Source: a bacterium
GTDB taxonomy: Bacteria; UBP4; UBA4092; JAOAEQ01
Reading direction: 5' to 3'
Length of the DNA stretch: 18,798 nt
Assembly: GCA_026416715.1 (NCBI GenBank)
Contig: JAOAEQ010000036.1
Location: 1-18,798 of the forward strand
Both the position numbers and the translations under genes were made by a program. Under the pieces are notes generated by a model, which had not been told where the DNA came from, made no database searches, and saw only the letters and a list, made by a program, of their open reading frames with translations. The number at the start of each line of letters is the position of its first letter. Positions within the stretch are counted from its first letter, which is position 1. Below, piece after piece: positions 3,948-18,653 of the stretch.

Positions 3948-6083
3948 ATGTATCTATTTCAGTCTGGTAAAGAACCTATTTCTAAACTAGTCTATATTAT
4001 TATTGGAATAAGCATATTCGTAGCTTGTCCCGCATTTGCTGCTGTGCAAGATTTCACCTTCTGGCAAATTAGCGATATCCATTCGCCATCGTTATCTAGC
4101 GCTTCAACGATAGCGCAACTAGCAAAACTTCGGCCGGTATATTTAGCGCCGTTTAAAACCATGAGTCAGCCGCCGTCGTTTATCCTCGCGACTGGTGATT
4201 TGACTGAATTCGGGTATCGTGGATGGAGCGCATATACCTCCTATTTCGCACAATATCGCATCCCGATATACCATCAGCTCGGGAACCATGATAATACCCA
4301 AGGAGCATTACAGCAGACTATCCGAGAACTATACGGTTCTCCCTATTATTCATTCGATACGTTCGGCTGTCATTTTGTCGGTATCTGTTCGCCGACATTG
4401 CATGAACCACTGCCGTCGTTCGGAGTTGAAATGCTGAATTGGCTGAAACAGGATTTGGATAAGGTTGGTCAGAAGACGCCAGTGTTCATTTTTTTCCATC
4501 ATCCACTCGATGCGAATGAATATGCGACCCCCATTGACCGATATACTTTTTTAGATACGCTCCGTCCGTATAACGTCGTGCTGCTCCTTGTCGGACATGG
4601 ACATAATGCGGTTGCGTATGATTTCGATGGCATCTCCGGTGTCCAAGGCGGAAGTACCTACGGTGCAAAAGCAGGATATAACGTTATCAATATAACTAAA
4701 AATAAACTGCAAGTTGCATATACCTTAGCATCTGAAACTGTAGCAACAATGAACTTGATTGAAAAAGAAATCCCAAGTTCAGCTACCTATCCTATTATTA
4801 CGATCCATAATCCAACCACGGCACAGGTGATAAATTCCGGTATGCTAACGATTCGCGCAACGATTCGGAATGCGAAAGATGTAAAATCCGCATTCTACCA
4901 AATTGATGACGGTGTGAAAATGCCGTTACCGTATTTAGATTTCTATTACGGCACAACAACGACAGTTACCGGATTAATTAATGGGGCGCATTTCGTTAAA
5001 GTAAGTTTTATATTAAGTAATACAACCGTTTACCGAACTGTGCGGTTCTATGTCGAAAATCCAGACCTGCCGAAAGCAAAATGGCGGTATCAGCTCGGTG
5101 GCTCGAGTAAATCGACGCCGGCAGTCGCTGACGGGATGGTTTATGTCGGTGCGAATGACGGAAAACTCTATGCCTTTTCCGCTGGTGGAACATTTTTCTG
5201 GGCATACCAGACGAATGGCGAAATACTCAGTTCTCCGCTAGTATATGGAAATTTAATTTACTTCGGGTCTGGCGATGGAAACGTTTATGCGGTATCACGT
5301 GATGGCAAACTCAAATGGAAGTATCAGGTTGGTTCGCCAGTATATTCTTCGCCGGTGATTGAAAACGGCATTATTTATATCGGGTCGAATAGCGGGAAAT
5401 TCGTTGCGCTCGATGCGTTGACTGGCGAATTGAAATGGCAGAATATCGAACCGAATTATGCTATTGAACAGAAACCGGCGGTACTTAACGGTGTCGTTTA
5501 TTTCGGAGCGTGGGATTCGTATATTTACGCTCTGGATGGGCAGACCGGAAAAACCCGATGGCATAGTCAAGCGGCAGGGAGCGCGTTTCGGACTGCAGCC
5601 AAAGAATATTATAGTGCGGCAGATTGTCCGCCGGTGATTTCACGAAATACAAGTTTAGTTTTCTTTACCGATCGCGACTTTCGACTCAGCGCTATTGATA
5701 TCCAATCCGGTGCGATATCCTGGTCAACCACGAACTGTGTCGGAGTCGGTATCTCTCGAGCGCAAGATGCGTTATATGTACGGAAATTCAGCGGGGATAA
5801 CCAGCTTGAAAAAGTTAAACTCGACGGAACTTTACTCTGGAGTGCTCCCGTCGTATTGAATCGTTCCCCGATGCGGTTTCCGACTGCGCCGATTGAAAAA
5901 GATGGGCTGGTGTATGTCTGTTCCTGCGACGGACGACTCTATGCTATTGATGCGAAAGATGGAAAAATCCTCTGGCAATATCAGGTCACTGCTGGGTCGT
6001 ATATCATGAATTCTGTTGCAGTCGCTGATGGTGTGGTATATGTTTCTGCAATGGATGGAACCCTTTCAGCGATTAGCAAATGA
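3948..6083 (+). CDS. Secreted calcineurin-like phosphoesterase with Ig-like and PQQ-type beta-propeller domains
   Basis: A 711-residue exported protein. Residues 1-31 form a signal peptide: Lys13, a hydrophobic stretch 14-27 and an AFA cleavage site at 29-31. The metallophosphoesterase domain (about 35-270) shows all metal-binding motifs: D43-x-H45, GD (83-84), GNHD (112-115), HH (184-185) and GHGH (216-219), implying a two-metal phosphodiesterase or phosphomonoesterase. Residues about 280-370 look like an Ig-like domain. From about 375 to the end there are roughly eight PQQ/BamB-like blades, seen as repeated 'DGxVYVGxxDGxLYALdaxxGxxxW' units. The substrate is unknown; the protein should act outside the cytoplasmic membrane, with the propeller serving for binding or scaffolding. 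The UGA stop shows that UGA is read as stop in this genome in normal contexts. Confidence 0.85.
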   Translation: MYLFQSGKEPISKLVYIIIGISIFVACPAFAAVQDFTFWQISDIHSPSLSSASTIAQLAKLRPVYLAPFKTMSQPPSFILATGDLTEFGYRGWSAYTSYFAQYRIPIYHQLGNHDNTQGALQQTIRELYGSPYYSFDTFGCHFVGICSPTLHEPLPSFGVEMLNWLKQDLDKVGQKTPVFIFFHHPLDANEYATPIDRYTFLDTLRPYNVVLLLVGHGHNAVAYDFDGISGVQGGSTYGAKAGYNVINITKNKLQVAYTLASETVATMNLIEKEIPSSATYPIITIHNPTTAQVINSGMLTIRATIRNAKDVKSAFYQIDDGVKMPLPYLDFYYGTTTTVTGLINGAHFVKVSFILSNTTVYRTVRFYVENPDLPKAKWRYQLGGSSKSTPAVADGMVYVGANDGKLYAFSAGGTFFWAYQTNGEILSSPLVYGNLIYFGSGDGNVYAVSRDGKLKWKYQVGSPVYSSPVIENGIIYIGSNSGKFVALDALTGELKWQNIEPNYAIEQKPAVLNGVVYFGAWDSYIYALDGQTGKTRWHSQAAGSAFRTAAKEYYSAADCPPVISRNTSLVFFTDRDFRLSAIDIQSGAISWSTTNCVGVGISRAQDALYVRKFSGDNQLEKVKLDGTLLWSAPVVLNRSPMRFPTAPIEKDGLVYVCSCDGRLYAIDAKDGKILWQYQVTAGSYIMNSVAVADGVVYVSAMDGTLSAISK

Positions 6084-6172: not shown

Positions 6173-7189
6173 ATGAAAATAAATCAGATTGGTGAATTTG
6201 AGCTTATCGAGCGGCTCGCTCGTTCCTTGGATAAACCAGGAGCGAATGTTATTGTTGGTATCGGAGACGATGCGGCTGTGATTGATATCGGAACCTCCGA
6301 ATATCTTCTATTCACGACTGATATGCTGGTTGAAAACATCCATTTTTCTCGGAAGTATGCGACCGGGTATCAAATCGGCTGGCGCGCAATAGCAGCGAAT
6401 ATCAGCGATATTGCGGCTATGGGCGGACTTCCTGGAGTAGCGGCGGTATCGCTTGGTGTCGCTGGTGATGTAGAAGTAGAATGGGTTGAAGAAGTATATA
6501 AAGGAATGCGGGAGTTAGCGGCGAAATATAAAGTTGATATCATCGGCGGGGATACCGTTTCCTCGCCGCAGATTATTATTAATATTGCATTAACCGGGCA
6601 AGTTAGTATATCAAATCTATCGTTGCGGTCACACGCGCAACTCGGCGATTTAATCCTAGCGACCGGTGATTTCGGCGGTTCCGCTGCCGGACTTGAGCTG
6701 TTACAGAACATTCCATCCGAAATCCGAAACCCGAAATCCGAATTGAATTATGTTATTGCGAGACATCTGACCCCCGAACCACGAATTGAAGCTAGTCAGA
6801 TTATTGCCAGTCATCCGTTATGTCATGCGTTAACCGATTCTAGCGATGGACTGGCTAGCGATTTACGAAACATTGGACTTGCAAGCGGAGTTGGCGCGAA
6901 AGTCTATGCGGACAAAATCCCAATTCACGGAACAACGAAAAAGGTTGCAGAACTAGCGAACAAGAATCCGATTGAATTTGCTCTCCAAGGCGGAGAAGAT
7001 TACGAACTGGTTTTCACCATGCCGCCAGATGCGGCTCTCGATGTTAAAACTGAAGTTGAACAGAAACTCAATCTGCCGATTTCAATCCTTGGCGAAATCG
7101 TTCCGAAAGAACAGGGGATAACCCTAATTCATCCTGACGGTTCGTCAGAACTACTTACACGATTTGGATATAATCATTTCATAAAATAA
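6173..7189 (+). CDS. thiL: Thiamine-monophosphate kinase
   Basis: A 338-residue ThiL, which phosphorylates thiamine monophosphate to thiamine diphosphate with ATP. Diagnostic segments are GIGDDAAVID (29-38), TTDMLVENIHFS, GWRAIAANISDIAAMGG, DIIGGDTVSS, LTDSSDGLASDL and LQGGEDYELVF. These make up the metal/ATP-binding N-terminal half and the substrate-binding C-terminal half of the AIR synthase-like fold. Length fits the family. Residues 181-190, in the normally variable linker before the RHLTPEPR segment, are encoded by a heptamer array (6714-6741). The ATG follows an octamer inverted-repeat element with no obvious ribosome site, so translation may be leader-poor or coupled. Neighbours give no thiamine operon. 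Confidence 0.95.
   Translation: MKINQIGEFELIERLARSLDKPGANVIVGIGDDAAVIDIGTSEYLLFTTDMLVENIHFSRKYATGYQIGWRAIAANISDIAAMGGLPGVAAVSLGVAGDVEVEWVEEVYKGMRELAAKYKVDIIGGDTVSSPQIIINIALTGQVSISNLSLRSHAQLGDLILATGDFGGSAAGLELLQNIPSEIRNPKSELNYVIARHLTPEPRIEASQIIASHPLCHALTDSSDGLASDLRNIGLASGVGAKVYADKIPIHGTTKKVAELANKNPIEFALQGGEDYELVFTMPPDAALDVKTEVEQKLNLPISILGEIVPKEQGITLIHPDGSSELLTRFGYNHFIK
6714..6741 (+). repeat. Heptamer repeat array inside thiL
   Basis: Four consecutive 7-mers with consensus AATCCGA (CATCCGA, AATCCGA, AACCCGA, AATCCGA). They encode SEIRNPKSE within residues 182-190, in frame, at a variable loop of ThiL. Confidence 0.75.
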
Positions 7190-7444: not shown

Positions 7445-7487
7445 GGAGTATCTACGAACGAGATGGTATCTCGTTCGTAGATACTCC
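7445..7487. repeat. Perfect 20-bp inverted repeat with 3-base loop
   Basis: Positions 7445-7464 are the exact reverse complement of 7468-7487, separated by GGT. The arms begin GGAGTATCTACG and contain CGAACGAGAT next to the loop. No T-run follows on either side, so it does not look like a standard intrinsic terminator. It could be a structured RNA, a protein-binding palindrome or a mobile-element remnant. Confidence 0.75.
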
Positions 7488-7802: not shown

Positions 7803-8129
7803 ATGGCGTCAACTTCTCAGCCATCAAAAACGTATTGTGCTAAAGGTCAACGGGACTGTAAACGGTTCGAATTGAAAGGGCAATGTGAAGGCGATTGTCC
7901 GATAGTTGTTCGGGAACAAAAACTCGCTGCCGAAGGAAAACTACCGAAAGTAAAAAAGAGTTTAGCGGAACTCTATCACGAACCGGTTGATGTTGATATC
8001 CCGTTTGAATTAGCGGATTTGGTAGCGATAACCGGTCCGGAATATGTTGAGTATATGTCCAAACCGGAATTATCGATTGCCCGATTTAATATATTGCTAT
8101 CGCAGAAAAAAAATACGACCAAACATTGA
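7803..8129 (+). CDS. Small Cys-rich protein of unknown function
   Basis: A 108-residue protein that I do not recognise. Four Cys occur near the N-terminus at 12, 19, 28 and 32 (spacing C-x6-C-x8-C-x3-C) in a lysine/arginine-rich context, which suggests a zinc ribbon or Fe-S site. The rest is charged, with no membrane segment or signal peptide. The gene has a near-consensus promoter and a GGAGG site 10 bases before the ATG, so it is very likely expressed. It ends in TGA, about 190 bp before hdrC, and sits just upstream of the hydrogenase/Hdr operon in the same direction. A role linked to that operon (redox sensing, assembly) is only a guess from position. Confidence 0.7.
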   Translation: MASTSQPSKTYCAKGQRDCKRFELKGQCEGDCPIVVREQKLAAEGKLPKVKKSLAELYHEPVDVDIPFELADLVAITGPEYVEYMSKPELSIARFNILLSQKKNTTKH

Positions 8130-8321: not shown

Positions 8322-8909
8322 ATGGCAAACCCGAATCAAAAAATTACTATCGAACAAGAAATGCAGCTCGGTTTCCTCGACGAAATCTACTCCATACCGG
8401 CTGGCGAAAAAATAAAAGATTGTATTCAATGTGGAACTTGTACGGGGTCATGTCCTGTGAGTTTCGTTATGGATCATGCGCCACGAAAATTATGGGCGAT
8501 GATTCGAGCTGGTATGCGGGACGAAGTATTATCCAGTAACACTATTTGGCTCTGTGCATCATGTTATTCCTGTGCCGTTCGCTGCCCGCAAGAAATCAAA
8601 ATTACCGATGTAATGTATGCGTTGAAACAACTGGCGATGAAAGATAAAAAATTCGCTAAAGATGTAACCGCACCGATATTTGCAAAATATTTCGTCCAAA
8701 TTATCAATCGCTACGGGAGAAACCATGAACCGGAATTGCTGGTTCGATACTATTTAAAAGCCAATCCGCTGGCGATGCTCAAAAACTCGTGGTTAAGTTT
8801 ACAACTTATCCGGCGTGGTCGGTTCCCGTTTTTTCCCGAACGGATTAAAGGGATTAAATCCCTGCGGAAAATGATGAAAAAAGCGCAATCGCTCGATGAA
8901 CTTAGATAG
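8322..8909 (+). CDS. hdrC: HdrC-like heterodisulfide reductase subunit C
   Basis: A 195-residue ferredoxin-type subunit with two [4Fe-4S] motifs: C34-x2-C37-x2-C40-x3-C44 and C78-x2-C81-x2-C84-x3-C88. Between them is the family segment HAPRKLWAMIRAGMRDEVL, and after them the typical ITDVMYALKQLA helix. In HdrABC complexes HdrC relays electrons from the HdrA flavin to the HdrB active site. The C-terminal tail is basic and helical and shows no transmembrane segment, so this is a soluble HdrC rather than a membrane HdrE/DsrM-like protein. A GGAG sits very close (2 bases) to the ATG. It is the first gene of the probable operon, followed by hdrB. Confidence 0.9.
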   Translation: MANPNQKITIEQEMQLGFLDEIYSIPAGEKIKDCIQCGTCTGSCPVSFVMDHAPRKLWAMIRAGMRDEVLSSNTIWLCASCYSCAVRCPQEIKITDVMYALKQLAMKDKKFAKDVTAPIFAKYFVQIINRYGRNHEPELLVRYYLKANPLAMLKNSWLSLQLIRRGRFPFFPERIKGIKSLRKMMKKAQSLDELR

Positions 8910-8913
8910 AAAC

Positions 8914-9028
8914 AAATTCGAATATTTAAATCCGAAATGACTGAATCCAAATTACATTCCTAAAAAAGGTTGATTTTGGAATTAATTAACGATTAATTTG
9001 GATTTTGAACTTTGGATTTTGGATTTGC
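8914..9028. repeat. Converging heptamer arrays between hdrC and hdrB
   Basis: Left array 8914-8962 consists of 7-mers such as AAATCCG and AAATTAC. Right array 8994-9028 consists of TAATTTG, GATTTTG, AACTTTG, GATTTTG and GATTTGC. The two are in inverted orientation: AATCCAAATTA at 8944-8954 matches TAATTTGGATT at 8994-9004, giving a possible hairpin about 30 bases apart. The element fills most of the gap. Confidence 0.6.
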
Positions 9029-9035
9029 ATTAACT

Positions 9036-9905
9036 ATGCGATATGCTTATTATCCCGGCTGTTCATTAAGCGCTACAGCAAAAGCGTATGATATTTCATC
9101 CAAAGTGGTGAGTAAAGAGCTGGGAATTGAATTCGAAGAACTCGAAGATTGGAACTGTTGCGGTGCCACAGCGTATCTTTCAGTAACTGAACTCCTATCG
9201 TTTACCTTTTCCGCTCGGAACCTAGCGTTAGCCGAAAAGATGGGGTTGGATATTGTCGCGCCATGTAGTTCTTGTTTTACCATATTAAATAAAACCAACC
9301 TGTATCTTGCTGAATACCCAGATTTGAAACGGAAAGTTGACATTGCGCTCGCAGAAGGCGGGTTGAAGTATTCCGGTAATGTTAAAGTCCGCCATCTTTT
9401 AGACGTTTATGTCAACGATATCGGCTATCAAAAAATCAAATCGAAAATGAAACGAGACCTAAAAGGATTGAATGTCGCCTGCTATTACGGTTGCCAAATC
9501 GTCAGACCCAAAAATAATTTTGATGACCCGGAAATGCCGACTTCGTTAGATGAATTAGTTACGACGTTAGGCGCGACTCCGGTACATTATCCAGTGAAAA
9601 CAAAATGTTGCGGTAGTTCTCTCATGGGAACAAAAGAAGAGTTAGCCTTGCAGTTAGTTAATAATTTATTAATGTGTGCCGTAGATAATCAAGCGGATTG
9701 TATTGTAACCACTTGTCCGTTATGCCAGATAAATCTTGATGCATTTCAAGGTAAAGTTAATCGGAAGTTTAAAACTAACTATGCGATACCGACTTTGTTC
9801 TTTCCGCAGTTGGTTGGATTAACGTTACCAATTCCTGTTGACGATTTAGCGATTCATAAAGGGATAGTATCGGCAGTTAACGTATTAGAAAAGCTTAAAA
9901 TATAA
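9036..9905 (+). CDS. hdrB: HdrB-like heterodisulfide reductase subunit B
   Basis: A 289-residue protein with two complete CCG domains. The first has C9, C41-C42 and C77-x2-C80. The second begins at ACYYGC, continues with KCCGSS and ends with TTCPLC. These motifs bind the two non-cubane [4Fe-4S] clusters that reduce the disulfide in HdrB. The start at 9036 (MRYAYYPGCS) is chosen because family members begin at this point; a TTG eight codons upstream (9012) falls inside the heptamer repeat and is unlikely. No Cys is missing, so a disulfide- or thiol-type acceptor is plausible, but its identity is unknown: a bacterium without CoM/CoB would need a different substrate. Confidence 0.9.
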   Translation: MRYAYYPGCSLSATAKAYDISSKVVSKELGIEFEELEDWNCCGATAYLSVTELLSFTFSARNLALAEKMGLDIVAPCSSCFTILNKTNLYLAEYPDLKRKVDIALAEGGLKYSGNVKVRHLLDVYVNDIGYQKIKSKMKRDLKGLNVACYYGCQIVRPKNNFDDPEMPTSLDELVTTLGATPVHYPVKTKCCGSSLMGTKEELALQLVNNLLMCAVDNQADCIVTTCPLCQINLDAFQGKVNRKFKTNYAIPTLFFPQLVGLTLPIPVDDLAIHKGIVSAVNVLEKLKI

Positions 9906-9998: not shown

Positions 9999-10826
9999 AT
10001 GAGCCATAAAATCGGAGTATATGTTTGTCATTGTGGAACGAATATCGCCGGAAAAGTTAATATTTCCGACGTAGTCGAATTTGCGAAAACTTTGCCAGAA
10101 GTAGCGATTGTTCGTGAATATAAATTCATGTGTTCCGACCCGGGACAGGATTTAATCAAGCGGGATATTAAAGACTTGGGATTAGACCGGGTTGTAGTTG
10201 CGTCCTGTTCTCCATTAATGCATGAATCGACGTTCCGAAAAGCTTGCGAACAGGCTGGATTGAATCCTTATTTATTCCAGATGGCGAATATCCGAGAACA
10301 ATGTTCGTGGGTAACGGAAGACCCGGATAAAGCGACGTTGAAAGCGAAAGCGTTAGTCAGTGCAGCTGTTCGGAAAGCAATCGAACTCGAACCGTTGGAA
10401 AAGAAAGAAGTAGCGATAAATCCGAATGTGTTAATCGTCGGCGGCGGTATTGCTGGAATCCAAGCGGCATTAGAAATCGCGAACGCTGGGAAAAAAGTGT
10501 ATCTGGTTGAAAAAGAGCCGTCAATCGGTGGACATATGGCGCAATTTGATAAAACCTTCCCGACTTTAGATTGTGCCGCGTGTATTTTAACTCCGAAAAT
10601 GGTTTCCGTTGGAAAACATGAAAATATCGAATTGTTAAGTTATAGTGAAGTGGTGGATTTTTCCGGGTTCATTGGGAATTTTAAAGTTAAAATTAACCGG
10701 AAAGCGCGATTTGTTGAAGAAGATAAATGCAATAGTTGCGGGCTATGCTGGGGGAGTTGTCCGGCAACGATGCTTCCGAAAAAGCGAGTGATTAAACTCG
10801 GCAATCGAGTGATTAAGAAAACATAA
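9999..10826 (+). CDS. HdrA N-terminal half (flavin Rossmann half plus first ferredoxin motif)
   Basis: A 275-residue protein matching only the first part of HdrA, which is normally about 650 residues or more. The N-terminal domain has VCHCGTNIAG (C10, C12), FMCSDPGQ (C45) and VASCSPLMHESTFR (C70), which hold an Fe-S cluster in HdrA. The FAD-binding GGGIAG is at 148-153. LDCAACILTPKM (C192, C195) matches the HdrA site where some archaea have Sec. A [4Fe-4S] motif C244-x2-C247-x2-C250-x3-C254 follows, then a short basic tail and TAA. The continuation (second ferredoxin motif, second FAD half, C-terminal ferredoxins) is encoded at 13145-14908. The two polypeptides probably assemble one HdrA-like flavoprotein. 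Confidence 0.85.
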   Translation: MSHKIGVYVCHCGTNIAGKVNISDVVEFAKTLPEVAIVREYKFMCSDPGQDLIKRDIKDLGLDRVVVASCSPLMHESTFRKACEQAGLNPYLFQMANIREQCSWVTEDPDKATLKAKALVSAAVRKAIELEPLEKKEVAINPNVLIVGGGIAGIQAALEIANAGKKVYLVEKEPSIGGHMAQFDKTFPTLDCAACILTPKMVSVGKHENIELLSYSEVVDFSGFIGNFKVKINRKARFVEEDKCNSCGLCWGSCPATMLPKKRVIKLGNRVIKKT

Positions 10827-10943
10827 TCGATAGGATTGTTCGTTTTGATAAATCATAGGTATCGGTTTAGAGAATAAACGGTTTTGTCACATTGAACAAC
10901 CGACTCTTAACTGAAATTTCAACTAGGTAACGAGATTGAGACA

Positions 10944-11162
10944 ATGGATATTGCAATGAGTCAATTTATCGAACAAACCTGCCAGAAATATGCCAATAGC
11001 AAAGAAGCGTTGGTGATGATTCTGCAGGATGTGCAGAAGCGCTATAAAGGATTATCCGAACCGGCGTTACGCGAAATTGCGCAGCGACTTCAAGTTCCGC
11101 TATCGCAGGTATATGGTGTTGCGAGTTTCTATAAAGAGTTCCAGATTCAGGAATTAGGGTAA
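10944..11162 (+). CDS. NuoE N-terminal helical domain stub
   Basis: A 72-residue protein that matches only the helical N-terminal domain of NuoE/24 kDa subunits: a run of helices ending in the strongly conserved VYGVASFYKEFQ (57-68). The thioredoxin-like [2Fe-2S] domain that normally follows, with its four Cys, is absent and there is no Cys-rich frame in the 187 bp downstream. The following NuoF-like protein has its own thioredoxin-like domain, which may replace it. The domain could serve as a docking piece for the NuoF-like subunit. The upstream GAGATTGAG gives only a weak ribosome site. Confidence 0.7.
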   Translation: MDIAMSQFIEQTCQKYANSKEALVMILQDVQKRYKGLSEPALREIAQRLQVPLSQVYGVASFYKEFQIQELG

Positions 11163-11349
11163 ACCCCGAATTAGGGATAGATATCGATTATGTTCTCCTA
11201 AATCTAAAATAGGGATTACGCAAAGTAAATTATCTATATAAATAAAACGATTGAGAGAACCACTAGCGTCGCGCATTTATTTAGAAACAAAAAAGCGTTC
11301 GGGTTTTTAACCTAAAATGCACATAATAGCTATAGACTGAATTGAGTGT

Positions 11350-13143
11350 ATGCTGAAGATAAAAACGATAGACGATTTACATCAAATACATCATCAGGCG
11401 GATAAACAACTGTATCCGGATAAGATAAAGATTACCGTTGGTGTTTCTTCCTGTGGTATTTCAGCCGGTGCAGATTTGGTTTTCAGAAAGATTCAGGAGA
11501 AAGTTGACCAATTACATTTTGACGCTATCGTTGCATCGACCGGGTGTATTGGATACTGTCAGCAGGAACCGATTGTTGCGGTTCGAAAACCGAATCAACC
11601 GGTAGTATTCTATGGAAAAGTTGATGTGAAAAAGGCGGAAGAGATTGTCACCGGCCTAAAAACCGGGAAAATGGTTACTGATTCTATCCTAGGAAAACTC
11701 GAGCAGAACGAAACGTTACTCAATCCGCATCAGCATCAATATTCAGTGTTGCCGGGTAATTCCGAGTATGCGCATATTCCTTCCTTATTCGAGCTACCGT
11801 TCTATAGCAAGCAAAAAAGAGTTATAACTCGCAACTGCGGTTTTATCAATCCGGATAGTATTGAAGAATATATTGCGCAGGGTGGATACTATTCACTCTA
11901 TCAAGTCTTATCGCAAAAGATAGCTTCTGACGCGATTGTATCCGAACTGAAAACTGCTAGACTTCGGGGACGGAGCGGGGAAGGATTTCCTACAGCATTG
12001 AAATGGGAAGCAGCGAAAAAAGTTGAAGCACCGGTGAAATATATTATTTGTAACGGGAGTGAATGCGATCCGATTGCTGTGAAAGACCGGCTCCTGTTCG
12101 AAAGTGACCCGCATGCGGTCATTGAAGGAATGCTCATTGGCGCATATACTATCGGAGCAAAAGAGGGATATATCTATCTTCGGAGTTCGTATACCCGAGC
12201 AATCGAAAAAATTCAGAATGCTATCCAACAAGCGGAACGATATGGACTATTAGGCGATGATATTTGCGGAACCGGATTTTCATTTAAACTCAAAGTTATT
12301 CGCGGCGCTGGCTCGTATATGACAGCTGCGGCAACTGCGTTACTCGCTGCTATTGAAGGGTTTGTTCCGGAACCGAGAGCGAAATATGTCCATGTCCTTG
12401 AACAAGGGCTTTATAATAAACCTACTGTCATTAATAGTCCGGAAACATTAGCGAATATCCCAGTGATTATTGGTCGAGGCGGTACGTGGTTTGCTGGGAT
12501 CGGAACGGAGAGAAGTAAAGGAACCAAATTGTTTACCCTTTCCGGTGCGATTAAAAATTCCGGAATTATTGAAATCCCGATGGGAATAACCATCAAAGAA
12601 ATTATAACTGATATCGGGGAAGGTGCATCTCCTGCAAATACCATTAAAGGAATCCATTTCGGTGGTCCTTCCGGCGGAATCTTATCACTCAACAGCGGAA
12701 CGGAAAAATCCTTTGCAGAAACTGCGGTTGATTTCGAGCAATTAGCTGCTGCTGGAAGCACTATCGGTAGCGGAAGCATTTTTGTTATTCCCAAAAACCT
12801 TTGTATAGTCGATTATCTAAAATCGCATGTTGATTTTCTCAAAGAAGAAATTTGCGGTAAATGCACCCCGTGCAGAGAAGGTATCCGCAATATTTCCCGG
12901 ATATTAACTGCAATTAGTAATGGGAAAGGAAACGAACAAGATTTAGATTTATTACAAGAAATCGCTGCAGTGATGATTGATACGTCATTATGCGAAATTG
13001 GGGTTACTGCAACGAATCCGATTTTAAGCAGTCTCGTTTATTTTAACGAAGAATATCGGAGTCATATCCGAGATAAAACATGTCGTATCAAACCCGGTTC
13101 GGCAGCGAAACCACCGAACCTAAACGCTAAAATGGTATGGTAA
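11350..13143 (+). CDS. NuoF-like flavoprotein with N-terminal thioredoxin-like [2Fe-2S] domain
   Basis: A 597-residue relative of NuoF/HydB/HndC. Residues 25-105 form a thioredoxin-like domain with VGVSSCGISAGA (C35) and STGCIGYC (C66, C70), as in HndB-type proteins. The flavin region follows with LRGRSGEGFPT (205-215), NGSECDP (235-241) and GAGSYMTAAATAL (319-331). In canonical NuoF these read GRGGAGFPTG, NADEGEP and GAGAYICGEETAL, so the paired Glu of CGEE are replaced by Ala327-Ala328. The C-terminal [4Fe-4S] site is intact: C502-x2-C505-x2-C508 and C548. It should transfer electrons between a flavin and the NuoG-like [2Fe-2S] subunit encoded next, one base downstream. NAD(H) use is doubtful given the changed site. 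Confidence 0.85.
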   Translation: MLKIKTIDDLHQIHHQADKQLYPDKIKITVGVSSCGISAGADLVFRKIQEKVDQLHFDAIVASTGCIGYCQQEPIVAVRKPNQPVVFYGKVDVKKAEEIVTGLKTGKMVTDSILGKLEQNETLLNPHQHQYSVLPGNSEYAHIPSLFELPFYSKQKRVITRNCGFINPDSIEEYIAQGGYYSLYQVLSQKIASDAIVSELKTARLRGRSGEGFPTALKWEAAKKVEAPVKYIICNGSECDPIAVKDRLLFESDPHAVIEGMLIGAYTIGAKEGYIYLRSSYTRAIEKIQNAIQQAERYGLLGDDICGTGFSFKLKVIRGAGSYMTAAATALLAAIEGFVPEPRAKYVHVLEQGLYNKPTVINSPETLANIPVIIGRGGTWFAGIGTERSKGTKLFTLSGAIKNSGIIEIPMGITIKEIITDIGEGASPANTIKGIHFGGPSGGILSLNSGTEKSFAETAVDFEQLAAAGSTIGSGSIFVIPKNLCIVDYLKSHVDFLKEEICGKCTPCREGIRNISRILTAISNGKGNEQDLDLLQEIAAVMIDTSLCEIGVTATNPILSSLVYFNEEYRSHIRDKTCRIKPGSAAKPPNLNAKMVW

Positions 13144-13144
13144 T

Positions 13145-14908
13145 ATGAGTCCACTCACTACGGTTAACTTTACGATTAATGGAATTCAGGTTAAAGCAGA
13201 AAAGGGTACTCCGCTTATCCAATCGGCTAGTAAACTGGGGATACCGATCCCGGCATTATGTACTTACGAACATATGGAACCCTATGGTGCATGTCGTCTT
13301 TGTGTCGTGGAACTCCATCGGGGTAATCGCAGTCGGTTGGTAACCGCCTGCAACTATCCAGCAAGTGAAGGTATCGCGATTGTAACCGATAGTCCACGTG
13401 TCCAGCGTGCTCGAAAAATGAATCTCGAATTTCTGCTCGGACAGAATGCTAATGTTCCGGTTATTCAGGATTTAGCGAAACAGTATGGGATAACCGAATC
13501 TCGGTTCGGAAAAGAACCAGGCGGATGTATTCTTTGCGGATTATGTGTTCGGATATGTGATGAAGTGGTTGGCGCCCATGCATTAACCTTCGCTCATACT
13601 GGATGCAATCGAGAAGTAGCCGTTCCGTTTAATAAAGAATCGGATGCGTGTATCGCTTGCGGTGCCTGTGCGTTTGTCTGTCCAACCGGCTACATAAAAG
13701 TTGAAGATTATAAAAACCGAAAAATCGTTCATTCAGAATTAACCCTGGGCCCGAAAACCCCCATTTATGTTCCAACCCTACAATCCGTTCCGAACGTTCC
13801 GGTGATTGATAAAGAAAGTTGTATCCATTTTAAAACTGGTAAATGTAAAATCTGCGCTAAAATCTGCGAATCTCGCGCAATTGACCATACCATGCAAGAT
13901 AAAACGGTTGAAATTGAAGTTGGGACAGCGATTATTGCTACCGGATTCAAGCCATTCGATCCGAGTGTTTTGACTCAATATGGATATGGAAAATACGACA
14001 ACGTCCTAACTGCGCTAGAGTTTGAACGACTGAACTGCGCTGCCGGACCAACCGGCGGAAAAGTGTTGATGACGAACGGTGAACCGCCGAAAAGTATCGC
14101 TATTTTGCATTGTATCGGGAGTCGGGATAAACAATATAACGAATATTGTTCTCGGGTCTGTTGTATGTATGCCTTGAAATTTGCGCATCTGGTGAAAGAA
14201 AAAACGAATGCGGAAGTATACGATTTATATTTAGATTTACGCTGTTTCGGAAAAGGATATGAAGAATTTTATCATCGCTTATTGGAGGAAGATGTGCGGT
14301 TTATTCGCGGAAAAGGTGCGGAAGTATCGGATTTTGCTATCTATCCCGGTGAAAAAGGAAAATTGATTGTGCGCGTTGAAGATACGTTATTAGGTCTTGT
14401 CCGTCGGATTCCGGTGGATATGGTAGTGCTCTGTACGGCGTTAGAAGCGGCAGAAAATGCGAAAGAAATTGCGCGCATGTTCTCGATAAGTCAAGGGAAA
14501 GACCGATTCTTTATCGAAAAACATCCGAAACTTGGGCCAGTAGCAACAAATACCGATGGAATTTTCATTGCTGGAGTCTGTCAGGGACCGAAAGATATTC
14601 CGGATACAGTTGCGCAAGGGTCAGCCGCAGCGGCGGCCGTATTATCGCTAATTATGAAAGGAAGCGCAGAAATCGAATCGGCGGTATCGGTAATAGACCC
14701 TGACTTATGTAGTGGGTGTAAAATCTGCAATGAACTATGTCCCTATGCAGCGATACTATTCAATGCGGATAAGAAAATTTCTGAAATTAATGAAGCATTA
14801 TGTAAAGGTTGTGGGACATGTGCTGCCGCGTGCCCGAGTGGAGCAATCACGGCGCGCCATTTTACTACGAAACAAATTATGTCTGAAATTGAAGGGGTTC
14901 TTTTATAA
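13145..14908 (+). CDS. NuoG-like iron-sulfur domain fused to the C-terminal half of HdrA
   Basis: A 587-residue fusion. Residues 1-85 are a [2Fe-2S] ferredoxin fold (C39, C50, C53, C69). The His-Cys [4Fe-4S] segment usual in NuoG/HoxU is missing: residues 95-112 contain no Cys. Two [4Fe-4S] motifs follow (C128/131/134/138 and C169/172/175/179). From about 200 the sequence is HdrA, resuming where the separate N-terminal half stops: IYVP...VPNVPVIDKESC, a ferredoxin motif (C226, C234, C237, C241), FAD strand GTAIIATGF, CIGSR...YCSRVCC (C323, C335, C339, C340), NTDGIFIAGV, and two C-terminal [4Fe-4S] motifs (C522/525/528/532 and C553/556/559/563). It should bridge the NuoF-like subunit to the Hdr and Mvh modules. 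The start is one base after the preceding stop, indicating translational coupling. Confidence 0.85.
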   Translation: MSPLTTVNFTINGIQVKAEKGTPLIQSASKLGIPIPALCTYEHMEPYGACRLCVVELHRGNRSRLVTACNYPASEGIAIVTDSPRVQRARKMNLEFLLGQNANVPVIQDLAKQYGITESRFGKEPGGCILCGLCVRICDEVVGAHALTFAHTGCNREVAVPFNKESDACIACGACAFVCPTGYIKVEDYKNRKIVHSELTLGPKTPIYVPTLQSVPNVPVIDKESCIHFKTGKCKICAKICESRAIDHTMQDKTVEIEVGTAIIATGFKPFDPSVLTQYGYGKYDNVLTALEFERLNCAAGPTGGKVLMTNGEPPKSIAILHCIGSRDKQYNEYCSRVCCMYALKFAHLVKEKTNAEVYDLYLDLRCFGKGYEEFYHRLLEEDVRFIRGKGAEVSDFAIYPGEKGKLIVRVEDTLLGLVRRIPVDMVVLCTALEAAENAKEIARMFSISQGKDRFFIEKHPKLGPVATNTDGIFIAGVCQGPKDIPDTVAQGSAAAAAVLSLIMKGSAEIESAVSVIDPDLCSGCKICNELCPYAAILFNADKKISEINEALCKGCGTCAAACPSGAITARHFTTKQIMSEIEGVLL

Positions 14909-15029
14909 AAAATCCAAATGTCACATAAATCGTTCAATAACTCAAATTTTTAATGTCGGGTTCACTGGTTCAATGATTAAACGATTTATTTAGATTTTTT
15001 TGGAATTAGGTTTTTGGGGTCATTAAGCC
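14909..15029. repeat. Intergenic inverted repeat before mvhD
   Basis: ATAAATCGTT (14925-14934) is exactly complementary to AACGATTTAT (14980-14989), with a roughly 45-base loop that includes GTTCACTGGTTCAATG, which looks like a decayed octamer array. No T-run follows the pair directly. It may be another member of the local hairpin-forming repeats. Confidence 0.45.
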
Positions 15030-15491
15030 ATGGCTGAGTTTGAACCGAAAATAGTAGGATTTTTATGTAACTGGTGTTCTTATACCGGTGCGGATTTAGC
15101 TGGCACTTCGCGGAAAAAATATGCGCCGAATGTTCGCGTTATTCGTGTGATGTGTAGTGGCAGAGTTGAGCCGACCTTTGTTTTAAAAGCGTTTGAAGAA
15201 GGAGCGGATGGCGTATTGATACTTGGTTGTCATCCGGGCGATTGTCATTATGCGGAAGGAAACTATAAAACCATGCGGCGATATCCGTTACTCAAAAAAA
15301 TGTTGACCCAATTAGGATTAGAAGAAGGACGAATTCGGCTCGATTGGGTATCAGCATCGGAAGGCGACCGGTTTGCTGAAGTAGTCAATGAAATGACAGA
15401 ACAGGTACGTAAACTCGGTCCGTTAAACTGGAAACAACGCGTGCAAAGTCTTGAAATGAAAGAAGAAAAACCTGAACATAACAACAAATAG
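15030..15491 (+). CDS. mvhD: MvhD-like electron-transfer subunit
   Basis: A 153-residue [2Fe-2S] protein with the complete MvhD signature: [18 protein letters not shown] (C13, C16), [10 protein letters not shown] (C42) and [14 protein letters not shown] (C67, C72). In MvhADG-HdrABC complexes it connects the hydrogenase small subunit to HdrA. The Cys at the position that is Sec in some methanococcal VhuD proteins is a normal Cys here. The C-terminal extension after about residue 130 is charged. A GGGG lies about 10 bases before the ATG. Its place between the HdrA C-terminal fusion and mvhG fits the electron path. Confidence 0.92.
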
Positions 15492-15512
15492 ATATATTAT
15501 CCTATATTATCT

Positions 15513-16487
15513 ATGAGCAAATTAAAATTAGCATTATATTGGGCAGGTGCATGTGGCGGATGCGATGTTGCGGTGTTGGATACGAACGAAAAAATTTTCG
15601 ATATTGCTAAGGTAGCAGATATTGTTCTCTGGCCAATTGCGCTCGACCATAAATATCAAGCAGTTAAAACGATGGCTGACGGTGAAATTGACGTCGCGTT
15701 ATTCAACGGTTGTATTCGCAATTCGGAAAATGAAGAGTTAGCGCATCTGCTCCGGCAAAAAGCAAAAATTCTCGTTGCGTTTGGTTCCTGTTCTCATCTT
15801 GGCGGGATTCCTGGTCTCGCGAATTTAGCGTCCGCTCAGCAAGTGTTTGATATTGTCTATCAGCAGACATTTTCTACCGTTAATCCGGATAAAATAGTTC
15901 CTCAGCCGAAAGTTACGGTTCCGGAAGGAGAATTGTATCTCCCGGTATTCTATAATACCGTAAGTACATTGGCACAGATAGTTGCTGTAGATTATTATGT
16001 TCCTGGTTGTCCCCCAGCGGTACATCAGATTGTGGCGGTCTGGCAAGCGATAGCTAGCGGCAATCTCCCGCCAAAAGGGTCGGTAGTCGGTGCATCGAAT
16101 AAAACGCTCTGTGATGAATGTGAACGGAAAAAAGAAGAGAAAAAAATAACTAAATTTTCTCGACCACATACCGTGGTTCCGGATAAAGAACGGTGTTTTT
16201 TAGAACAAGGAATCATTTGTATGGGACCGGCGACTCGTGGTGGATGTGGGCTTCGTTGTATAAAATCAATGATGCCATGTCGAGGTTGCTACGGACCAGC
16301 ACCAGGCGCAATTGACCAAGGAGCGAAAATGATTAGTGCGGTTTCCTCGATTATTGATTCGAAAGACCCGAACGAAATCCAAAAGACTATTGACCAGATA
16401 GAAGACCCGATTGGAACGTTCTATCGGTTTAGTTTACCGCAATCATTATTAAAACGTAGTAAACTCGATAAAGATGATGCCGGTTAA
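15513..16487 (+). CDS. mvhG: [NiFe] hydrogenase small subunit (MvhG-like)
   Basis: A 324-residue small subunit of a group 3 cytoplasmic hydrogenase. Cluster ligands are visible in the usual order: WAGACGGCDVAVLD (C14, C17), FNGCIRNSENEE (C67), AFGSCSHLGG (C93) and VPGCPP. A C-terminal Cys-rich region follows (LCDEC, then CGLRC and PCRGCYGP) that carries the medial/distal [4Fe-4S] clusters. There is no Tat signal, so the enzyme is cytoplasmic. It relays electrons from MvhA to MvhD. No ribosome site is obvious, but the gene lies 21 bp after mvhD. Confidence 0.92.
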   Translation: MSKLKLALYWAGACGGCDVAVLDTNEKIFDIAKVADIVLWPIALDHKYQAVKTMADGEIDVALFNGCIRNSENEELAHLLRQKAKILVAFGSCSHLGGIPGLANLASAQQVFDIVYQQTFSTVNPDKIVPQPKVTVPEGELYLPVFYNTVSTLAQIVAVDYYVPGCPPAVHQIVAVWQAIASGNLPPKGSVVGASNKTLCDECERKKEEKKITKFSRPHTVVPDKERCFLEQGIICMGPATRGGCGLRCIKSMMPCRGCYGPAPGAIDQGAKMISAVSSIIDSKDPNEIQKTIDQIEDPIGTFYRFSLPQSLLKRSKLDKDDAG

Positions 16488-16549: not shown

Positions 16550-18013
16550 ATGAAACGTATATCCATTGACCCGATAACTCGGTTGGAAGGTCACGGGAAA
16601 ATCGAGATTTTCCTAAACGATGCCGGAAATGTCGAAAATTGCTATTTCCAAGTACCAGAATTACGTGGGTTTGAACGGTTCTGTGTCGGTCGGCCGGTAG
16701 AAGAGCTACCGCGGATAGTAACACGAATTTGCGGCGTTTGACCCGGCGCGCATCATATGGCCTCGGGTAAGGCCGTAGACGCAGTATATCATGTAGAGAT
16801 ACCGTCTGTGACTAAAAAACTTCGTGAACTTTTCTATTGTGCGCATTATCTCCACAGTCATATCGCGCATTTCTATGCGTTAGCGGCACCAGATTTTGTG
16901 CTCGGTCCTGATTCCGACCCGGCGAAACGGAATATCCTCGGTGTTGTTGAGAAAGTCGGATTAGAAATCGGCGGTGAAGTTATCAAACATCGAGCGTATG
17001 CGCAGGATATCCAGACGATTATTAGCGGTCGTGCAACCCATTTAGTTTGGTCGCTACCTGGTGGAGTAAGTAAAGGAATATCGAAAGAAGACCGAGACAG
17101 AATTGAACAGATGGGCAAATCCTTACTTGAATTTGCTAAATTCTCAGTTAAACTGTTTGAAGATGTGGTATTGAAAAATCAAGCCTATGTAGATTTGATT
17201 CTCGGCGATGCCTACAAATACCCAACCTATTATATGGGGTTAGTAGATAAGAATAATAACGTTAATTTCTACGACGGCGATATTCGCGTTGTTGACCATG
17301 ACGGAAAAGAATTTCATAAATATAAACCTGCGGAATATTTGGATTATATTGCAGAGCATGTTGAACCATTTACCTATTTAAAATTCCCATATCTGAAAAA
17401 GGTTGGCTGGAAAGGGTTTGTCTTCGGGAAAGATAACGGGCTCTATCGTGCGGCACCGTTAGCGCGATTAAACGCCGCTGATGGTATGGCAACGCCACTA
17501 GCGCAAGCGGAATATGAGAAGTTCTATAGCACGCTTGGCGGAAAACCGGTTCATGCGACGCTGGCGATGCATTGGGCACGGTTAGTTGAACTCGTTTATG
17601 CCGCAGAACGATTAATGGAACTGGTGAGCGATCCGGAGATTACCGACCCAAATGTCCGGGTTATCCCGACAGCGACTCCGACTGAAGGAGTCGGTGTGGT
17701 TGAAGCGCCACGGGGAACGTTATACCATCACTATGTGACCGACGAAAAAGGGATTGTTACCAAAGTAAACCTGATTGTTGGAACGACTAACAATCATGCA
17801 GCTATTTCGCTCTCAATCAAACAAGCAGCTGAAAAACTGATTACCGCAGGGAAAGTGGTAACCGAAGGATTGTTAAATATGGTCGAAATGGCGTTCCGGG
17901 CGTATGACCCATGTTTCAGTTGTGCAACCCATACGCTTCCTGGCGAGATGCCGTTAACCATCGAAATCTACGATAAAGAACGGAATCTGCTTCAGAGAGT
18001 CAGCCGACAGTAG
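16550..18013 (+). CDS. mvhA: [NiFe(Se)] hydrogenase large subunit with predicted selenocysteine at residue 64
   Basis: A 487-residue large subunit read through an in-frame TGA (16739-16741). The N-terminal L1 motif reads R59-x-C61-G-V-[TGA64]-PGAHH, where group 3 enzymes have R-x-C-G-V-C-PGAHH. The C-terminal L2 motif D453-P-C455-x2-C458-x2-H461 is normal. Residue 64 corresponds to the Cys that bridges Ni and Fe. The frame is identical on both sides, with no other lesion, and a SECIS-like hairpin follows the TGA. The 26 residues after H461 should be removed by a maturation protease such as the one at 18159. A strong AAGGAGG (16531-16537) precedes the ATG. Alternatives are a point mutation or sequencing error at one Cys codon. 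UGA is not globally reassigned, since other genes here end in it. Split annotation would give a 63-residue fragment plus a frame from 16757. Confidence 0.85.
16739..16741 (+). other. In-frame UGA, predicted selenocysteine codon
   Basis: TGA replaces a Cys codon (TGT or TGC) at residue 64 of MvhA in an otherwise intact frame, at the second Cys of the L1 motif. Sec replacing a catalytic Cys is the normal pattern for bacterial selenoproteins. Confidence 0.75.
16756..16777 (+). promoter_or_regulatory. SECIS-like hairpin downstream of the mvhA UGA
   Basis: Eight base pairs join 16756-16763 (TATGGCCT) to 16770-16777 (AGGCCGTA), with one G-U pair and a six-base loop CGGGTA (16764-16769). The loop starts 22 bases after the UGA and has G in its second position and a GGT, as in known bacterial SECIS loops. 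These properties fit the published bacterial SECIS consensus (loop 16-37 nt downstream, G in the first two loop positions). It lies inside the coding region, as bacterial SECIS elements do. Confidence 0.7.
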
Positions 18014-18052: not shown

Positions 18053-18087
18053 AAAAGCAAGTTATCCATTGGATAACTTGCTTTTTT
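18053..18087 (+). terminator. Strong intrinsic terminator after mvhA
   Basis: A perfect 11-bp stem, GCAAGTTATCC (18057-18067) with its complement (18071-18081) and an ATT loop, is flanked by AAAA and TTTTTT. It lies 40 bp after the mvhA stop and ends the operon. As AAAA pairs with TTTT, it could also serve the opposite strand. Confidence 0.9.
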
Positions 18088-18158
18088 ATTGTATAGTATT
18101 TAGGAGTCTCGTTATTTAGCTTTAAGTGATTTGACATCCATTTGATCTTGCTTTTTCT

Positions 18159-18653
18159 ATGAAGACACTCATTCTCGGTCTCGGTAACGATATCCTATGC
18201 GATGACGGTGTCGGCATCCATATTGCTAACCAGATTAAAGAAATTTTAGCCAGTCGTGCAGAATTCCGCAACCCGCATTTTGCAAACCGCAACCAGATTC
18301 TTGATGTGAAAACTACGACGCTAGCCGGATTCAATCTGCTCGACCTGCTGACCGGTTACGATCGGGTTATTCTGATTGATGCGATTAAAACCAATACCGG
18401 AAAAGTAGGTGAAATATATCAGTTAACCCCTGATAGTTTTAAGACTACCCCACGATTATTTTCGTTCCATGATATCGATTTGCCGACCGCATTAGAACTG
18501 GCTAAACGATTGAATATCCCGATGCCGCAAGAAATTAAAATATTCGCTATCCAAGTTCAGGATACCGAAACCTTATCCGAAACCTGCACGCCAGAAGTTG
18601 CTGCGGCGATCCCGCACGTTATCAATTTGATTTTTCAGACGGTAGAAATTTAA
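18159..18653 (+). CDS. Hydrogenase maturation protease (HyaD/HycI family)
   Basis: A 164-residue M52-type endopeptidase that would trim the C-terminus of the hydrogenase large subunit after nickel insertion. It begins MKTLILGLGNDILCDDGVG, the family N-terminus, with the first metal ligand position at D16 (often Glu). A second Asp is at D74 (ILIDAIK) and a His at H104 (FSFHDIDL), the usual nickel-sensing triad. MvhA has a removable 26-residue tail after its last His, fitting this role. Residues 35-48 are encoded by a heptamer array (18261-18302). The gene is separated from mvhA by a terminator and has no clear promoter or ribosome site of its own. Confidence 0.9.
   Translation: MKTLILGLGNDILCDDGVGIHIANQIKEILASRAEFRNPHFANRNQILDVKTTTLAGFNLLDLLTGYDRVILIDAIKTNTGKVGEIYQLTPDSFKTTPRLFSFHDIDLPTALELAKRLNIPMPQEIKIFAIQVQDTETLSETCTPEVAAAIPHVINLIFQTVEI
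18261..18302 (+). repeat. Heptamer repeat array inside the maturation protease gene
   Basis: Six consecutive 7-mers (GAATTCC, GCAACCC, GCATTTT, GCAAACC, GCAACCA, GATTCTT) encode EFRNPHFANRNQIL at residues 35-48. They sit between the first helix and the next strand, a loop region. This is the third in-frame array of this type in the window. Confidence 0.65.

Follow-up and report, generated by a model that had tools for sequence, protein, structure and literature searches.

Predicted selenocysteine at the Ni-Fe bridging position of a bacterial MvhA, probably a second class of [NiFeSe] hydrogenase

Introduction

In the structures of [NiFe] hydrogenases, each of the motifs L1 and L2 provides two Cys, the first a terminal ligand of Ni and the second a bridge between Ni and Fe. 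One Cys of this Ni-Fe site is naturally replaced by selenocysteine (Sec) in HysA of Desulfovibrio and Desulfomicrobium, and in VhuA/VhuU and FruA of Methanococcales and Asgard. The large-subunit fold and the L1 and L2 motifs of HysA, VhuU and FruA are homologous to those of the MvhA described here, which likewise has a candidate Sec in place of one such Cys. Nevertheless, in these enzymes Sec occupies the position of the first Cys of L2 (UxxC), a terminal ligand, whereas in the present protein the predicted Sec occupies that of the second Cys of L1 (CxxU) and L2 is all-Cys. To our knowledge, the known natural [NiFeSe] hydrogenases all have Se at the terminal, proton-relaying ligand.

This proton-relaying terminal Cys is also the sole naturally Sec-occupied position named in a study of engineered enzymes (PMC11212049), and two reviews, from 2022 and 2026, give only UxxC, i.e. 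L2, as the Sec motif of MvhA/VhuA/VhuU and FrhA (PMC9312934, PMC13188914), in agreement with the initial annotation of this DNA, which had given L2 as the Sec site of the known [NiFeSe] enzymes. Papers on Asgard give FrhA, MvhA and VhuU as known families. A "selenocysteine-containing hydrogenase (MvhA2DG)" is mentioned for Db. autotrophicum, with a list of 17 Sec proteins of energy metabolism; MvhD, a periplasmic [NiFeSe] hydrogenase, HdrA and others are on this list, and MvhA is not among them. We found no natural hydrogenase with Sec in L1 (CxxU) in the open-access literature; subscription papers or databases may hold one. Evans et al. reportedly made single Cys-to-Sec replacements in Hyd-1 and Hyd-2 of E. 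coli in 2021 and 2024. In laboratory-made E. coli Hyd-1, Sec was put at each of the four Ni-binding Cys, bridging positions included (PMC11212049). These engineered Hyd-1 and Hyd-2 are artificial, UAG-programmed group 1 enzymes, whereas the gene described here has a natural TGA and belongs to group 3c.

MvhA of the HdrABC-MvhADG complex (5odc_F) has the same fold, the group-3 motifs and the gene order mvhD-mvhG-mvhA beside hdr genes, but this complex is archaeal, has Cys at the L1 bridge and lacks the NuoEFG-like subunits found here. The HydABCSL-type bifurcating [NiFe] hydrogenase (7t2r_D) combines an NADH module with a [NiFe] large subunit, as in the present system, but its active site is all-Cys and it has no HdrBC.

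The gene studied here lies in the window, by which we mean the whole stretch of DNA that was analysed (18,798 nucleotides; assembly GCA_026416715.1, contig JAOAEQ010000036.1). We consider it very likely that it encodes a full-length MvhA containing Sec64, which would be decoded via a downstream hairpin and would bridge Ni and Fe in an Hdr-Nuo-Mvh complex.

An in-frame TGA at the L1 bridging codon of mvhA

The gene, its motifs and the hairpin are located as follows in the window.

16550..18013, + strand: MvhA-like group-3c [NiFe] hydrogenase large subunit, 487 aa with TGA as Sec (phmmer, Foldseek)
16724..16756, + strand: L1 motif R-I-C-G-V-U-P-G-A-H-H, Cys61 encoded by TGC (translation and alignment)
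16739..16741, + strand: in-frame TGA, predicted Sec 64, at the L1 Ni-Fe bridging Cys position (homologue comparison)
16759..16774, + strand: SECIS-like hairpin GGCCT-CGGGTA-AGGCC, with G at the second loop position (fixed-position comparison)
17906..17932, + strand: L2 motif D-P-C-F-S-C-A-T-H, both Cys encoded by TGT (translation)

When TGA is read as U, positions 16550-18013 form a single frame of 487 residues with exactly one TGA, at codon 64; a default ORF caller reports just the post-TGA part of mvhA. Over its entire length the 487-residue frame can be aligned with an MvhA of known structure, 5odc_F (phmmer, E 8e-123), residue 64 being aligned with the second Cys of RICGIC, and Cys455 and Cys458 of L2 are both retained (TGT, TGT). 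The four Ni-binding positions of the predicted protein are C61, U64, C455 and C458, that is one Sec and three Cys. The alignment to solved structures and the established ligand roles place codon 64 at the L1 bridging position.

An AlphaFold model of the large subunit, with Cys modelled for Sec, has a pLDDT of 86 and a pTM of 0.87. Its top PDB match in Foldseek is 5odc_F, MvhA of the Hdr/[NiFe] complex (TM 0.87/0.95), and the next-best matches are the bifurcating HydABCSL (7t2r_D, second) and then NAD-reducing enzymes. Full-length MvhA homology and the L2 form D-P-C-x-x-C-A-T-H are both present in the product of 16550-18013, and the L1 bridging Cys expected of a group 3c MvhA is replaced by TGA. 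The window protein scores far under the cut-off of the NCBIfam HysA and VhuU models, and the VhuA model NF041785 gives 431 bits, below its curated cut-off of 800. Because it has no Sec in L2, the enzyme is set apart from the classical [NiFeSe] family.

Conservation of the first two codon positions, with a near-random third, is equally strong upstream and downstream of the TGA. The TGA at 16739-16741 is genuine, and is neither a sequence error nor a lesion. The initial annotation had placed it exactly at the second Cys of R-x-C-G-x-C, with both Cys of L2 kept, and had seen no lesion in the rest of MvhA; codons 64, 455 and 458 and the 5odc_F alignment agree with the former, and the single frame, the single TGA and the equal conservation on either side with the latter. 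Its proposal of Sec at the L1 bridging position instead of L2 is supported by the recurrence of the TGA, the hairpin, the Sec genes and the structure alignment.

The same TGA in homologues from several phyla

A first scan of public genomes for relatives gave 80 loci; when loci from the relatives' genomes were added, TGA was found at codon 64 in 16 of 112 and at none of the other ligand codons. Wider searches contributed further genes, and removal of near-copies left a set of 161 distinct homologous genes, in which codon 64 is TGA in 36, TGC in 82 and TGT in 43. The 77,460 codons of these genes include 36 stops, every one a TGA and every one at codon 64, which exceeds chance, and none of the 159 genes covering L2 has TGA at codon 455 or 458. 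The initial annotation had advised reading this L1 column in homologues and had named pseudogene decay among them as evidence against Sec; the column holds TGA in 36 of 161 genes and otherwise TGC or TGT, and the conserved TGA is accompanied by no other stop.

Besides the window's lineage, genes with the L1 TGA occur in Bacillota, Chloroflexota, Acidobacteriota, Krumholzibacteriota, Latescibacterota, KSB1 and UBP1. In the class of Desulfoscipio, 17 genomes out of 33 with a match have a TGA gene; the class of L021 (Dehalococcoidales), which was sampled, has nine TGA genes in 8 of 70 genomes; and TGA was found in 7 of 25 in the phylum of L049. With a strict DNA pattern, whose reversed control gave no match, two further TGA genes came from the phylum that holds the Acidobacteria locus, and the 377 genomes in the phylum of L036 gave none. 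The cultured type strains Desulfotruncus alcoholivorax DSM 16058 and Desulfoscipio geothermicus DSM 3669 both have TGA genes; therefore metagenome assembly error is not the cause. We think it quite likely that these genes represent a natural L1-CxxU [NiFeSe] class, widespread in bacteria and repeatedly exchanged with Cys, whose active-site chemistry would be new to the study of natural enzymes.

Several genomes have both Sec and Cys copies of mvhA. Genome G349 (locus L159) has two TGA-type mvhA genes on one contig, at C27:9380-10837 and 14348-15805, about 3.5 kb apart, and Cys-type copies at other sites. When the L1 and hairpin columns are left out of the tree, nine changes between Sec and Cys are needed, at least seven of them on supported branches. 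These changes likely occurred both ways, the tree giving the number of changes and not gain versus loss. Residue 66 (16745-16747) is Glu in none of the 36 Sec proteins, compared to 54 of 100 Cys relatives; this link between Sec64 and the absence of Glu66 is not significant on independent pairs when relatedness is considered, and we do not claim it.

A SECIS-like hairpin downstream of the TGA

Bacterial SECIS elements are hairpins closely downstream of the TGA, with a G within the first two loop positions. In the window, a hairpin of five pairs and a six-base loop starts 20 nt downstream of the first base of the TGA and comprises bases 21-36 counted from its T, a distance which we take to be typical for bacterial SECIS. 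Since an Rfam gathering search of the window gave no match, we judged this element by fixed-position comparison. At the fixed positions, five pairs (stem GGCYT/ARGCC) and a loop of the form CGNGNA are found in all 36 TGA genes; among 100 Cys homologues more than 60% identical, 18 have the five pairs and 4 have the pairs and the loop. For the hairpin with its loop (36/36 Sec versus 4/100 Cys), Fisher's p is about 9e-29, with kinship ignored.

The Ser codon inside the hairpin is TCG in 36 of 36 Sec genes, compared to 14 of 54 Cys genes, in which TCC, TCA, TCT, AGC or TCG is used. As TCG is fixed in the Sec genes alone, this synonymous site is under constraint in TGA genes only. One TGA gene, L023, shows a compensatory change from C-G to U-A, which is the sole covariation support. 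Folded alone, the window hairpin is no more stable than shuffled sequences (z -0.40), and the minimum-energy fold of some Sec genes does not contain it. The conserved hairpin fits a bacterial SECIS. The complete hairpin and loop are also retained in four Cys-type mvhA genes (L048, L165, L166 and L178), which are likely relics of a recent Sec-to-Cys change.

Selenocysteine machinery

In the window's genome, which comprises 2.96 Mb and is 100% complete according to the tool, selA (608 bits), selB (417 bits) and selD (368 bits) are present, and a tRNA-Sec (70.7 bits) with the anticodon tca (UCA) adjoins selB; all four genes for which the initial annotation had proposed a search, selA, selB, selC and selD, are present. 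SelD is itself probably a selenoprotein, and thus the second likely one of this genome, since its gene (L122, G000 C14:30425-31351) has one in-frame TGA at the active site, C-S-G-U-A-A-K. Across the genomes compared, selA is above the cut-off in 16 of 16 TGA genomes versus 16 of 30 Cys genomes (p 7e-4, kinship ignored).

Alternative explanations

That the TGA results from a sequencing or assembly error, or from the decay of a pseudogene, is hardly conceivable: the genome is a multi-contig assembly, but the same TGA is found in 35 other genes, in two type strains and in several named phyla, and the TGA genes have no other stop and equal codon-position conservation on either side. UGA might be read as another residue, genome-wide or by suppression, either as Cys by a tRNA-Cys(UCA) or as Trp. 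Reading as Cys would restore the canonical L1 motif, and UGA-to-Cys recoding occurs in some bacteria. Nevertheless, the ORF at 7803-8129 of the window terminates at TGA, so the code is not simply reassigned; tRNA-Sec has the only UCA anticodon among the tRNA-Sec search matches examined, in which tRNA-Cys has GCA; and the TGA is accompanied by the hairpin and by selA. We regard such a reading as very unlikely.

A stop at the TGA followed by a restart at codon 70 would give a split subunit like methanococcal VhuA/VhuU, and codon 70 is ATG, TTG or GTG in 33 of the 36 Sec genes. However, it is CTG or TCG in the three others, neither L1 ligand would be in the C-terminal product and the bridge would be missing from the N-terminal one, and the fixed use of TGA instead of TAA or TAG, the conserved hairpin and the synonymous sites would be left unexplained, making a split subunit extremely unlikely. 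Finally, Sec could be inserted but have its role elsewhere than in the mature bridge, in maturation or as a redox sensor. Studies of D. vulgaris HysA, as summarised in PMC10362691, imply that Sec takes part in the incorporation of nickel; as residue 64 falls on the invariant L1 Cys in the alignment with 5odc_F and other group-3 enzymes, we consider a role away from the bridge very unlikely to be the explanation here.

Proposed enzyme and possible role of the bridging selenium

For a full-length MvhA with Sec64, SelB and tRNA-Sec(UCA) would decode the TGA as Sec, directed by the downstream hairpin. In the product, Cys61 and Cys455 would be terminal on Ni, and Sec64 and Cys458 would bridge Ni and Fe, by analogy with the homologous structures. 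We infer with confidence both the co-translational insertion of Sec and the bridging Se ligand. MvhA would serve as the large hydrogenase subunit in a cytoplasmic HdrABC-NuoEFG-MvhDGA complex, which we infer from the operon and which is probably electron-bifurcating or confurcating and would couple H2 to NAD(H), ferredoxin and a disulfide. Within such a complex, the enzyme probably represents a second, bridging-Sec class of [NiFeSe] hydrogenase.

The terminal position of Se has shaped ideas on the benefit of selenium, namely less product inhibition and less irreversible oxidation. A natural enzyme with Se on the Ni-Fe bridge, if true, would separate these two effects. Proton relay is the task of another cysteine than the bridging one. 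Reversible sulfoxygenation of the bridging cysteines is reported for an oxygen-tolerant group-3 enzyme, that of Cupriavidus necator (PMC12596923), and we hypothesize that a selenolate at the bridge could ease the reversal of such oxidation. Most speculatively, the bridging selenolate might render oxidative damage of the bridge reversible and/or shift the bias between H2 production and oxidation; it could also, again speculatively, adjust the electronic properties of the Ni-Fe site in an enzyme that operates close to the H2 potential. As two cultured type strains carry L1-TGA genes, the question is testable now. The results also suggest that L1-TGA genes run the risk of being mistaken for fragments or pseudogenes in annotation.

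Operon context

The other genes of the operon are the following.

8322..8909, + strand: HdrC-like 4Fe-4S protein (profile match)
9027..9905, + strand: HdrB, CCG domains (PF02754)
9999..10826, + strand: HdrA N-terminal half, Cys at the HdrA Sec position, DCAACI (translation and domain match)
10945..11163, + strand: short NuoE-like ORF, 72 aa (by eye from translation)
11350..13143, + strand: NuoF-like FMN/NADH subunit (PF01512, PF10589)
13145..14908, + strand: NuoG-like N-terminus fused to the HdrA C-terminal half (domain matches)
15030..15491, + strand: MvhD (FlpD), all Cys (PF02662)
15513..16487, + strand: MvhG small subunit (PF01058)
18159..18653, + strand: hydrogenase maturation protease, HycI family (PF01750)

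The genes mvhD, mvhG and hdrABC are present with mvhA in the operon, and the gene order points to a putative cytoplasmic H2/NAD(H)/ferredoxin/disulfide bifurcating complex. HdrA is split in the window (9999-14908) into two ORFs, with the NuoE- and NuoF-like ORFs between them. The initial annotation, which had called all operon genes intact, was right in that there is no lesion but had overlooked this split, which is an arrangement and not a lesion. In L017, L020, L021 and L044 the HdrA hits lie next to each other, as expected for an unbroken gene, whereas in L041 NuoF and the fused form of NuoG are present.

In the operons of L017, L020 and L021, TGA is also found at conserved Cys codons of HdrA, where it replaces the second Cys of DCAAC, and of MvhD, where it lies in LG-TGA-HP. 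The TGA-bearing stretches of L017 are 4649-5400 (HdrA) and 6613-7020 (MvhD), with the same places in L020 and L021, and the TGA of MvhD is seen in L018 and L046 as well. HdrA and MvhD are established selenoprotein families (PMC13188914). With TGA in MvhA, HdrA and MvhD, the complexes of L017, L020 and L021 may therefore have up to three Sec subunits each.

Upstream of the operon, a near-perfect long palindrome, GAGTATCTACGAACGAGAT-GGT-ATCTCGTTCGTAGATACTC, is found in non-coding DNA at about 7446-7487 of the window. Between mvhA and the protease gene, at about 18055-18090, a hairpin followed by a T run looks, by eye, like an intrinsic terminator.
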